From NCBI RefSeq assembly GCF_004122095.1, contig NZ_SAWZ01000005.1, forward strand, positions 310,001 through 374,000: 64,000 nt of DNA, read 5' to 3'. Below are positions 8,897 through 11,772 of this stretch, in pieces. The stretch comes from Pseudoxanthomonas composti. GTDB lineage: Bacteria > Pseudomonadota > Gammaproteobacteria > Xanthomonadales > Xanthomonadaceae. The notes under the pieces are model-generated. The model was not told the DNA's origin. It did not search any database and saw only the letters and a program-made list of their open reading frames with translations. Position numbers and translations under genes: made by a program. Numbering within the stretch: position 1 is the stretch's first letter; each line of letters starts with the position of its first letter.

Positions 8897-9018
8897 GGGC
8901 TAGGAACGAGAAACGAGGAACGAGGAACGAGGAACGAGTGAAAGCGACCTTGCCGCTGCGAGATGCGCACTGGGGAGCACTCGTTCCTCGTTCCTCTCCA
9001 CTCGTTCCTCGCCCCGCC
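8897..9018. repeat. Heptamer palindrome, class GGAACGA
   Basis: Tandem 7-base units (GGAACGA, repeated four to five times) at 8902-8940 are answered by their reverse complement at 8978-9011. The inner 19 bases at 8922-8940 and 8978-8996 are perfectly complementary, with a 37-base spacer. Outer ends are GGGGC and GCCCC. The element fills most of the space between the divergent CPBP protease and chloride transporter genes. A second member of the same class lies at 47468-47573. Confidence 0.85.
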
Positions 9019-9076
9019 CGCTTCTCGTACAGCACGCGGACCCGCCCCACACACGGCCCATGCGAAAATCCCGATC

Positions 9077-10423
9077 ATGGCCGATCCATCGTATTCCTCC
9101 TCCCTCGGCACGCTGCTCTCGCGCGACCAATGGAAGCGCCGCTGCGCACTGTGGGGGGGCGCGGTCGCCGTCGCCCTGGCCGCGCTGGTGTTCGCCAAGG
9201 CCGGCGATGCGGCCTTCGCGCTGTTCGGCGGCATCGTTTCGCATTCGCCCTGGTGGGCGCTGCTGGTCACGCCGGCGGTGTTCGCGCTGCTGGCCTGGCT
9301 GACCAATGGGGCGCTCAGGCCCACGCGCGGCAGCGGCATTCCGCAGGTGATCGCCGCGCTCGAGCGGCCGGACCAGGACTTCCGCCGCAAGAATCTCTCC
9401 TTGGGCGTCTCGGCCGGCAAGTTGGCGCTGACCGTGGTGGCGCTGTTCGGCGGCGCCTCGGTGGGGCGCGAAGGCCCGACCGTGCACGTCGGGGCCAGCC
9501 TGATGTACGTGATCGGCCGGCGCTTCGGTTTCAGCGACCCGCGCGAGGCCGCCCGCTTCCTGCTGGCCGGTGGCGCGGCCGGCATCGCCGCGGCGTTCAA
9601 CACGCCACTGGCGGGCGTGGTGTTTGCCATCGAGGAACTGTCCGACCGCTACGAGCACCGCTTTTCCGGCACGCTGCTGACGGCGGTGATCATCGGCGGC
9701 GTGATTTCGCTGGGCCTGGTCGGCAACTACACCTACTTTGGCCGCGTCGATGCGCACCTGGCGCTGGGCATGGGCTGGCTGGCGGTGCTGCTGTGTGGCG
9801 TGGTCGGCGGCCTGGCTGGCGGCCTGTTCGTGCGCCTGGTGCTGGCGGCCATGGACGGCAAGCCGCGCTGGCTGGCGGCCGCGCGCGGACGCCAACCGGT
9901 GCTGTTCGCCGCCGGCTGCGGCGTGGCGCTGGCGCTGATCGGCATCTGCTTTGGCCAAGGCGCCTTCGGCACCGGCTACGAGCAGGCGCGCAGCCTGGTG
10001 CAGGACCAGGCCACGGTCGGGCACGAATTCGGCCTGATGAAGTTCGCCGCCAACCTGGTGTCCTACCTGGCCGGCATTCCCGGCGGCCTGTTCTCCCCGG
10101 CCCTGGCGGTCGGCGCCGGGATCGGCCACAACCTGGCGGCGCTGCTGCCCGGGGTGGATCCCTCGGCCATCGTGCTGCTGGGCATGTGCGCCTATCTCAC
10201 CGGCGTCACCCAGGCCCCGCTGACCTCGGCGGTGATCTCGATGGAGCTGACCGACAACAGCGACATGCTGCTGCCGATCCTGGCCACGGTGCTGCTGGCG
10301 CGCGCCCTGTCCGCACTGGTCTCGCCCACGCCGATCTACAAGGCCCTGGCGCAACGGGTGCTGGCCGATCTACCGGCCCCTGCCCATCAGCGCGGTGACA
10401 GTCGGCCCTCCGACCGCACCTGA
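9077..10423 (+). CDS. CLC-family chloride channel/transporter (ClcB-like)
   Basis: A 448-residue CLC protein. The selectivity-filter signatures are all present: GSGIP, GREGP carrying the external gating glutamate, and GGLFSP. The internal proton-pathway glutamate is also conserved in FAIEELSDRYEH, which suggests a chloride/proton exchanger rather than a pure channel. The central tyrosine that coordinates chloride in E. coli ClcA (in TDNYQL) is replaced here by serine (TDNSDM), a feature of the ClcB side of the family. The start ATG at 9077 lies just after the heptamer palindrome; a longer frame back to 8963 would read through the repeat and is unlikely. Confidence 0.88.
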   Translation: MADPSYSSSLGTLLSRDQWKRRCALWGGAVAVALAALVFAKAGDAAFALFGGIVSHSPWWALLVTPAVFALLAWLTNGALRPTRGSGIPQVIAALERPDQDFRRKNLSLGVSAGKLALTVVALFGGASVGREGPTVHVGASLMYVIGRRFGFSDPREAARFLLAGGAAGIAAAFNTPLAGVVFAIEELSDRYEHRFSGTLLTAVIIGGVISLGLVGNYTYFGRVDAHLALGMGWLAVLLCGVVGGLAGGLFVRLVLAAMDGKPRWLAAARGRQPVLFAAGCGVALALIGICFGQGAFGTGYEQARSLVQDQATVGHEFGLMKFAANLVSYLAGIPGGLFSPALAVGAGIGHNLAALLPGVDPSAIVLLGMCAYLTGVTQAPLTSAVISMELTDNSDMLLPILATVLLARALSALVSPTPIYKALAQRVLADLPAPAHQRGDSRPSDRT

Positions 10424-10536
10424 GGTCCGGGAGCACCAACTCGGCCAACGAACCGGCGTCGTTCCGCCGCCTGCGTCACGCAGTAAGCCGCCCGCCCAAG
10501 TGGGTCCGTCTTTTAGCCAAGGGAATGCGGCTTCGC

Positions 10537-10838
10537 AGGGGCAGCAGTCCGGCGGGCGGTGGCCGCCTTTCGCTCGGTCAGGGCATCCTGCCTCGCCTCA
10601 ACCGCTCGACGTTCTGCCTCGCCTGCCTTGCCATAGCCCGCCGAACCGCTGCTGCGCGTTCAGGTCGAATGCCTTTTTCTGCCGAAGTCCAAATCCAGCC
10701 GCCGCAGGCCTGGGCCTGAGCCGGGTATGGCGGAAAGCGGGCCAGGGATGGCCCGCGGCGGCGAGTCAGCCATGGATGGCTGACCGAGCCGAGGAGCCAT
10801 GCCCGGCTCAGGCCCAGGCTGGTTGGCGAAGTCGGCTT
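10537..10838. repeat. Structured intergenic repeat, copy 1
   Basis: First of two direct copies. Four stems can be drawn. P1 pairs 10543-10563 with 10630-10653, with a three-base bulge on the 3' arm. P2 pairs 10709-10725 with 10802-10818 (17 perfect pairs). Inside P2 are hairpin P3 (10737-10744 with 10749-10756) and hairpin P4 (10765-10773 with 10776-10784, GTCAGCCAT/ATGGCTGAC). The same architecture recurs in copy 2 with changed but still paired bases. No convincing gene is present; open frames exist on both strands but lack start signals. Confidence 0.8.
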
Positions 10839-10953
10839 TTCGCGATCAGGCACATCGCGTCATGAAGACTGAAAGTCCCCGTGATTCGACGAAGGGCTGT
10901 TTCCTTATCGTGCTGCTTATCGCTCGCTCGAAGTCTGCGCGTCATGACTTCGG

Positions 10954-11256
10954 AGGGGCAGCAGTCCGGCGGCCGGTGGCCGCTCTTCCCTCGGTCAGGG
11001 CATCCTGCCCCGACTCGTGCGCTCGGCTCCTGCCTCGCTTGCCGCGGCCACCGGCCGCCGGACCGCTGCTGCACGCGTCAGGTTGAAAGGCTTCGGTCCA
11101 AGAGCGTCCAAATCCAACGCCGCGTGGCCTGGATCTGAGTCGGTATGGCGGAAAGCAAGCCCATGGTGGCCTGCGTCGGCGAGTCAGCCATGCCTGGCTG
11201 ACCAAGCCACGCAGCCATCCCCGGCTTAGATCCGCGCTGCCTAGCCAAGTCTGCTC
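10954..11256. repeat. Structured intergenic repeat, copy 2
   Basis: Direct copy of the element at 10537-10838, offset by about 417 bases and clearly diverged. P1 pairs 10960-10983 with 11044-11070 (19 perfect pairs plus five beyond the same three-base bulge). P2 pairs 11131-11143 with 11221-11233, all 13 positions paired counting two G-T wobbles. P4 is 11183-11190 with 11195-11202. P3 survives in weakened form near 11155-11174. Shared primary sequence includes GTCAGGGCATCCTGCC, GTCCAAATCCA and TATGGCGGAAAGC. Confidence 0.8.
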
Positions 11257-11306
11257 ACCACGACCGCGCGCATGCCGACCAGGGAACCGGGGGCCGGCGA
11301 TGACTC

Positions 11307-11340
11307 AAAAAAAAAACGCGACCCGGAGGTCGCGTTTTTC
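11307..11340 (-). terminator. Rho-independent terminator for the THX-like gene
   Basis: Stem CGCGACC/GGTCGCG with loop CGGA at 11317-11334, flanked by ten A on the left and five T on the right. Read on the minus strand it is a stem followed by a ten-T tract, placed 22 bases after the THX-like stop codon. It could also work in the plus direction. Confidence 0.93.
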
Positions 11341-11361
11341 AGCAGGCGCTGGCGGCGGCGA

Positions 11362-11532
11362 TCAGCCGGCCTTGGCGACCTTCTTGGCCACGGCCTTCTT
11401 GGCGGCGGACTTGACCACGGTCTTCTTGGTCACCGGCGCGGCGACGGCGGCGCTCGTGGTCTTCAGACGGGCATTGCCATAGCTGGCGTTGTAGCGCTTG
11501 CCCTTGGCGGTCTTGCGGTCACCCTTGCCCAT
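11362..11532 (-). CDS. 30S ribosomal protein THX-like small basic protein
   Basis: A 56-residue highly basic protein. The N-terminus MGKGDRKTAKGKRYNASYGN matches the THX (Thx/bTHX) family, which sits in a pocket of the 30S head and normally ends after about 25-30 residues. Here the core is followed by an Ala/Lys/Val-rich tail of about 30 residues (TKKTVVKSAAKKAVAKK), similar in composition to histone-H1-like tails, as seen in other xanthomonads. A good AGGAGT ribosome site precedes the ATG at 11532, and a strong terminator follows, so it is a single-gene transcript. Confidence 0.85.
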   Translation of the reverse strand: MGKGDRKTAKGKRYNASYGNARLKTTSAAVAAPVTKKTVVKSAAKKAVAKKVAKAG

Positions 11533-11772
11533 GTTCGGATACTCCTGAGTTGATGTTGCCGCGCAACTCCAGCCAGCCCAGGTCGGGCGCGGATGCGCGA
11601 AGGGCGCAAAGCCTACCACAGCGCCCGGCGTGCCCGAAGCGTGGCGGCGGGTGGCATGGTACGGATGGCGGATCGGCAAGGCCGGCAGCGCTGCAAATGC
11701 ATGCGCGGCTGCCGGGCAGCGCGCGCCGGACACCGCCTGGTGCTGAACCGCCGCGACTAGCCGCCCGCCGGC

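Follow-up and report, generated by a model that had tools for sequence, protein, structure and literature searches.

A repeat dispersed over the chromosomes of Lysobacteraceae, each unit of which has a conserved branched fold, occurs as two tandem copies in the window (the 64,000-nucleotide stretch of the Pseudoxanthomonas composti genome that was analyzed, contig NZ_SAWZ01000005.1, positions 310,001 to 374,000). The feature is real and is selected as a fold, and this fold most likely acts as RNA. The sequences suggest that its best-supported function is a predicted docking of the protein RsmA (CsrA), and we consider it rather likely that the repeat is a multicopy RsmA-binding RNA element of Lysobacteraceae similar to the Rfam family TwoAYGGAY, whose binding and transcription we infer. 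A preliminary description of this DNA had noticed the tandem copies and a fold; it missed the dispersed family, the nature of the structure that it called P1 as an inverted relative of its P2–P4, and the GGA loops.

The two diverged direct copies that had been described are present at about 10530–10855 and 10947–11273 (matching blocks 10531–10855 and 10948–11273, 416–419 bases apart and 74–93% identical by block); the element begins a few bases upstream of 10537 and stops slightly past 11256. A full element is an inverted doublet in which a left (L) unit with its sense on the minus strand is followed by a linker and by a right (R) unit with its sense on the plus strand. Since the two units are related and inverted around a linker of about 50 bases, there is one sense unit per strand. 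A unit measures about 112–130 bases and consists of a basal stem that closes two hairpins, in the order hairpin A, hairpin B on a stem with tandem G-A, and a junction that usually includes GGA. Units were identified with R1, a covariance model of the right unit, and R2, a model matching L units. The features of the window are the following:

10490..10505, plus strand: weak terminator-like hairpin of the upstream plus-strand gene (hairpin scan)
10530..10659, minus strand: copy 1 L unit, previously P1 (R2 match of 105.8 bits, L001 1511-1641; row 1 of alignment A2; fold)
10656-10672, plus strand: weak terminator-like hairpin overlapping the start of the copy 1 linker (hairpin scan)
10660..10706, no strand: copy 1 linker between the divergent units (alignment of 21 full copies)
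10707..10819, plus strand: copy 1 R unit, P2 enclosing P3 and P4 (R1 match of 119.4 bits, G000:C20:320707-320819; arms; fold)
10737..10756, plus strand: copy 1 R hairpin A (P3), GCGGGCC-AGGGAT-GGCCCGC, predicted RsmA site with GGA at 10746-10748 (fold)
10765..10784, plus strand: copy 1 R hairpin B (P4), GTCAGCC-ATGGAT-GGCTGAC, predicted RsmA site with GGA at 10774-10776 (fold)
10791..10796, plus strand: GAGGAG of the copy 1 R unit, a third GGA at the junction of hairpin B and the basal stem (sequence, fold)
10947..11077, minus strand: copy 2 L unit (R2 match of 137.6 bits, L001 1928-2058)
11126..11237, plus strand: copy 2 R unit (R1 match of 83.6 bits, G000:C20:321126-321237)
11311..11340, minus strand: strong terminator-like hairpin of the downstream minus-strand gene, facing the element (hairpin scan)

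The copy 1 R unit has a 24-bp basal stem and two hairpins, with hairpin B on the stem that includes tandem G-A. The copy 1 L unit retains the basal stem; its hairpin A has no GGA (AGAAC), and its hairpin B keeps AGGAT on a weakened stem. GGA is retained in both loops of the copy 2 L unit (11003-11005 and 11028-11030, minus strand). The stems of the copy 2 R unit are preserved by compensation, and both its loops are devoid of GGA (CATGGT and ATGCCT), so this unit probably has no working RsmA site. The upstream flanking gene (8963-10423, plus strand) we take to encode a ClC-type chloride channel, on account of its GSGIPQ, and the downstream one (11362-11533, minus strand) presumably encodes a small basic ribosomal-protein-THX-like protein.

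The multi-branched fold proposed earlier holds for P2 enclosing P3 and P4, but the "P1 hairpin" is itself a branched unit, the opposite-strand relative of P2–P4. The replacement of a G-C by a C-G pair in P1 (GGCGGGC/GCCCGCC to GGCGGCC/GGCCGCC) is present in the sequence, as is the change of P2 from GGGCCTGAGCC/GGCTCAGGCCC to GGATCTGAGTC/GGCTTAGATCC, although the P2 positions said to be still paired include two G-U wobbles. What had been taken for a three-base bulge is better read as a single A-C mismatch, with GCAGC-A-GTCCGG pairing with CCGGAC-C-GCTGC in the fold.

Selection on the fold, which the preliminary description had deduced from the two copies, is supported by covariation over 88 homologous units from 13 genomes, the test set beforehand. 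In the alignment of these units (A3), which was fitted to model R1 using only matches with E ≤ 1e-6 and thus favors the structure, 96.7% of 3134 paired cells are standard pairs, and the proportion falls to 26–40% when the partners are shifted by 1–3 columns. Both sides vary in 31 of the 36 pairs; 443 cells do so against a shuffled mean of 122, a value that none of 500 shuffles reached. A3 omits units weaker than E 1e-6 and hence the L units of the own genome, which were counted separately in a structure-free MAFFT alignment of L units (A2). There, 95.5% of 1044 cells pair and 30 cells are double-changed against 8.3 expected (0/500 shuffles), while further pair types are not in excess over the shuffles (25 versus 24.1; 204/500). 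The tandem G-A arrangement around hairpin B, GGC-GA-GTC...GAC-CGA-GCC, occupies columns with full or at least 90% conservation among 35 R units, the G-A pairing being judged by eye. A conserved protein frame, the alternative named at the outset, is unsupported: the changes follow base pairs, and every reading frame is interrupted in some of the 35 R units (a given frame is open in 13 to 32 of them), a weak test in GC-rich DNA.

Copy 1, used as a query against the own genome, produced 39 matches, and 28 extend over 121 bases or more (full elements, left or right halves). There R1 found 24 sites above 70 bits, the weaker rows being mostly antisense echoes. Matches to R1 were obtained in 4 of 38 genomes of Pseudoxanthomonas; the lack of a match in the other 34 shows a patchy distribution and indicates that the element is not essential. 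Under strict filters, 16 of the 54 genera sampled from the family included genomes with R1 matches, 113 out of 395 in all; a sample of 369 genomes spanning the class yielded two, each of them from Lysobacteraceae. A GGA-containing pattern found 43 stretches over the named genomes. R1 scores 40 bits or more on 37 of them, from Luteimonas, Lysobacter, Pseudoxanthomonas and other Lysobacteraceae; the other six, which score at most 19.2 bits, belong to Bacteroidales, Acidobacteria (three), Magnetococcales and Mycobacteroides, all of them unrelated taxa. Tandem repeats at 375–420 bases recur in the window and in genomes that we call Xanthomonas-type, an assignment by inference (one stretch holds the Xanthomonas sRNA sX9). 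A description of this repeat was not found in full-text literature searches, judged by titles and the beginnings of abstracts.

The kinship of L and R units is apparent in other genomes. In several elements of Luteimonas suaedae and P. wuyuanensis, each strand has one unit that R1 recognizes (L units at 62–75 bits, R units at 96–110 bits), and the order GCGGAGAGC-hairpin A-GAGTC-hairpin B-GACCGA is common to R units and the L units of L. suaedae. The L units of the own genome score 26–38 bits on R1, within the range that antisense echoes of R units reach (up to 40.2 bits); the relation rests on units of other genomes at 45–75 bits and on the shared sequence. The outer ends of full elements (e.g., L136 and L137) read GCTTCGGA ... 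TCCGAAGC, a possible short terminal inverted repeat, and no target duplication was established there. In Xanthomonas-type arrays (L173, L174 and L179) a second recurring hairpin, CCCCTCTCCCG.CGGGAGAGGGG TTGGGGTGAGGGTACGG, is located near the units; its match to Antizyme_FSE is below cut-off and probably due to chance. An adjoining inverted structure, whose loops read CATGGATG and ACAAGGATGT and whose outer arms read GGGGCAGGAC (L173:120-240 and L179:1360-1470), is apparently another GGA-loop unit beyond the reach of R1.

On the sense strand, most hairpin loops read A-N-GGA-U. A census of 119 distinct units from A3 and A4, with one antisense echo removed from A4, found hairpin A in 112, of which 109 keep the loop GGA. 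Hairpin B was found in 115 units, with GGA in 60/69 at loci fetched without the GGA pattern and in 41/46 at loci fetched with it. Of the 32 L units in A2, most of which are not part of A3, 26 retain GGA at hairpin A and 26 at hairpin B. The second position of ANGGAU varies freely (T 52, G 29, A 9, C 2 and absent 8 among 100 hairpin-A loops of the CANGGANG form) and the closing pair is usually C-G, while the outer stem is rewritten between genera, as illustrated by the 5′ arms of hairpin A (GCGGGCC, GCAGGCC, GCTGCAC, GCTGACC, GTCGGCC, GCGCGCC and GCGGAC). The Xanthomonas-type hairpins are GGCACA[N]GGATGTGCC and GACAGGATGTC, the first being also written CACANGGATGTG. In a census of hexaloops over 274 kb of contigs, which were chosen for holding the element, loops of the form A.xyzT had GGA most often; with the known units masked (some were left unmasked), GGA was counted 8 times against at most 2 for loops other than its reverse complement. 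By eye, a second GC-rich repeat starting with GGTGAGC interrupts the GGA loop at its GG in L as well as R units of Luteimonas and P. wuyuanensis (R hairpin A in L130, L156 and L161; L hairpin B in L126, L135, L136, L138 and L141), as if the GGA loop were targeted.

These loops resemble those to which CsrA proteins bind. The SELEX consensus for CsrA is RUACARGGAUGU and the loop in the NMR structure of RsmE is ANGGAN, as given in an extract of PMC7652899; the Xanthomonas-type loops (ACANGGAUGU) agree with the SELEX consensus, which fits GGCACA[N]GGATGTGCC where N is R. For Xanthomonas, the consensus ACARGGAUG is stated for RsmA in an excerpt of PMC3937308, and the Xanthomonas-type hairpins agree with it and with the ANGGAN loop as well. 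CsrA dimers bridge sites separated by 10–63 nt, according to a passage of PMC4066749; the two GGA of the copy 1 R unit start 28 nt apart (10746 and 10774), and at least two ANGGAN-loop hairpins at such a distance are found in copy 1 R and are missing from copy 2 R. The gene csrA was identified in the own genome and three other carriers (G004, G017 and G052). Counting against the RsmA reading, the stems are of 7–8 pairs, longer than those of most SELEX ligands, which have four or fewer contiguous pairs; very stable stems may disfavor binding (PMC7652899, same extract).

The constraint is stronger on the GGA strand. When the 88 units and their complements were folded by the same procedure, 222 G-U pairs were counted on the GGA (sense) strand and 129 on the complement, the sense strand having more in 56 units, fewer in 13 and equal numbers in 19. 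Folding energies favor the sense strand by 7.8 kcal/mol on average, a difference to which loop energies contribute and whose mean has the same sign in 13 of 13 genomes. A second set of 32 further units behaved similarly (65 G-U pairs versus 29; 23 units above, 6 below), and the excess is absent in G017 (16 versus 20), G004 (13 versus 13) and NML93-0793 (2 versus 4). These counts are to be read with the reservation that units within one genome are related and are not independent events, and that this alignment-free test was made after a column-based count of wobbles on the alignments had been weak (23 versus 19 and 29 versus 24 columns). Because G-U pairs are more numerous on the GGA strand than on its complement, we favor RNA over duplex DNA; single-stranded DNA, in place of RNA, could also give rise to this asymmetry.

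Crude GC-codon gene calls placed 20 of 45 element gaps between convergent genes and 2 between divergent ones, with the upstream gene directed into the element at 34 of the 45 loci. At the named loci, 7 of the 21 R units with both neighbors called lie in convergent and 1 in divergent gaps (8 more are at edges), compared with 5 convergent and 8 divergent among 34 comparison gaps, and the upstream gene points in for 14 of the 21. The pair of copies in the window is flanked by terminator-like hairpins facing each other, with a weak third one in the copy 1 linker (three found versus 0.8 expected). No sigma-70-like promoter was found in 10380-11400, linker included. A run of five T is present within about 75 nt upstream in 10 of 21 full copies, so that many may lie beyond a terminator. 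This context suits a 3′-end RNA or a tolerated repeat alike. One R unit of the own genome (G000:C1:47935-48043) is about 680 nt downstream of csrA (G000:C1:48722-48877) on the same strand; no R1 match was listed within 5 kb of csrA in G004, G017 or G052, and the proximity was therefore treated as a coincidence.

We propose that a transcript containing a sense unit would present two GGA hairpins to one RsmA (CsrA) dimer, which would clamp both of them. Many copies jointly, or each copy locally in a 3′ untranslated region, could then sequester or recruit RsmA, the sequestration being of the type exerted by RsmX/Y/Z, CsrB and RsmU. Besides the long stems, several results count against this proposal: the promoter search without a hit, the terminator-like hairpins around and within the pair of copies together with the T-runs, the outcome of altering the GGA motifs of RsmU, the weak column count of wobbles and the three genomes lacking a G-U excess, the patchy distribution, the TwoAYGGAY scores below cut-off, and the units whose loops have lost GGA. 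A stronger version, which we regard as tentative, is that of a distributed sponge: dozens of inverted doublets, each sense unit docking one dimer, with the copy number setting the level of free RsmA.

Several observations would also be expected from a repeat acting at the DNA level, of the REP/REPIN/BIME or MITE kind, that is, a palindrome doublet spread by a transposase between convergent genes, the hairpins being needed only as single-stranded DNA or cruciforms. The element is dispersed, multicopy, an inverted doublet and patchy within the genus; it prefers convergent to divergent gaps (on crude gene calls), and its outer ends show, by eye, a GCTTCGG/CCGAAGC similarity. Against this stand the size of the units, 112–130 rather than 20–40 nt, the strand asymmetry of the wobbles, and the survival of the GGA loops through turnover of the stems. 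A link with RAYT/Y1 transposases was rejected, as G017, whose genome is 100% complete, has no Y1/RAYT match yet 19 R1 matches (other carriers have one Y1 match in G000, one in G004 and four in G052). Spread by plasmids or phages was rejected as well, since blastn found nothing in plasmids with two queries, nor in phages with the single query used there, a Xanthomonas-type unit. We hold this explanation to be rather unlikely.

Less probable still is an element of 3′ untranslated regions or of convergent genes that protects transcript ends, terminates transcription or insulates, its GGA loops serving another protein or none. The upstream genes pointing into the element, both over the 45 loci and for R units, and the facing terminator-like hairpins of the window are in its favor; it leaves unexplained why ANGGAU, with a free N, is kept across loops and genera. 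That the window holds a decaying duplicate with chance pairing is very improbable. The copy 1 L unit and the copy 2 R unit are indeed degraded, and two copies taken alone are weak evidence, but the many homologues and their covariation (0/500 shuffles) bear out the earlier view that the element is more than that.

Control of RsmA in xanthomonads is poorly known, and a 2014 paper states that they lack the inhibitory RNA rsmB. A family supported by covariance, with paired CsrA-type hairpins in 113 of 395 genomes of the family, is a direct list of candidates for this control. If the sponge were true, it would supply the RsmA antagonist missing from bacteria that are said to have no rsmB, and multicopy repeats serving as a protein sponge would make an unusual repeat family tied to a global regulator.

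As the preliminary description had supposed, no Rfam family reached its gathering score in the window, which led us to reject membership in any of them, and among 20 further loci only the adjoining sX9 did. Like REP, REPIN and BIME sequences, the repeat consists of dispersed, intergenic, inverted palindrome pairs. It differs from them in unit size, in its branched fold and in having no link with Y1 transposases. A REP/REPIN is a 20–40 nt palindrome with a GTAG/CGTC-type tag, according to extracts of the literature on them, and such tags are absent here, as judged by eye.

The likeness to RsmX/RsmY/RsmZ, CsrB/CsrC and RsmW resides in the several GGA hairpins and in the logic of sequestration, whereas those are sRNAs present in one or a few copies (RsmX in up to five) and this is a multicopy repeat. 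No significant Rfam match to RsmX/Y/Z or CsrB/C was obtained in the window or the further loci; RsmW, of the same clan as TwoAYGGAY (CL00106), gave a non-significant 21.3 bits on copy 1 (E 0.37). RsmU of Xanthomonas campestris, reported in 2020 as an RsmA-binding RNA processed from the 3′-UTR of the ComEA mRNA, belongs to the same bacterial family and sequesters RsmA; changing all four of its GGA motifs abolished neither RsmA binding nor function (extract of PMC7694677). In a positive control, two Xanthomonas-type genomes had GGACAGGATGTCC and an CACTTGGATGTG hairpin in the stretch that follows ComEA, presumably the RsmU orthologue, so that the RsmU locus type has a hairpin of the same kind (GGACAGGATGTCC). 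RsmU was rejected as a member of the repeat family, since R1 has no match in the ComEA 3′ region and two weak ones (32.4 and 25.9 bits) more than 1 kb away, and it is reported as a single locus, unlike the multicopy repeat.

The nearest Rfam family is TwoAYGGAY (RF01731) of clan CL00106, which groups CsrA-binding RNAs. A search of 15 genomes produced 33 TwoAYGGAY matches with E ≤ 0.1 in 10 of them, the best at 40.8 bits and none over the cut-off of 43; the other five genomes and 14 control genomes had none. Among the R1 units listed, 21 of the 33 matches fall on one, and cmscan detected three units in 19 loci at 28.7–35.4 bits. The copies in the window were not matched, either in a scan that kept only the best of a clan or in the search of 15 genomes. 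Sub-threshold matches outside the R1 family (G000:C8:19262-19326, G000:C1:263170-263234, G007:C1:1497931 and 3640516, G014:C1:1767861 and G001:C42:29814), some in genomes without R1 units, are possible further RsmA-binding RNAs. Motif matching led to the proposal that TwoAYGGAY itself binds CsrA (PMC4333381), and it is recorded from the human gut, gamma-Proteobacteria and Clostridiales. As every score is under the cut-off, the repeat is called TwoAYGGAY-like and is not filed as a member. Most units have two GGA loops, and position 2, a Y in the A-Y-GGA-Y of that family, is G or A in 38 of the 100 CANGGANG hairpin-A loops. The repeat also differs in its basal stem, which is long and conserved, the external stem of TwoAYGGAY being described as poorly conserved (PMC4333381), and in its multicopy inverted doublets in Lysobacteraceae. 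What the two have in common is a pair of hairpins with GGA terminal loops and tandem G-A in one stem.
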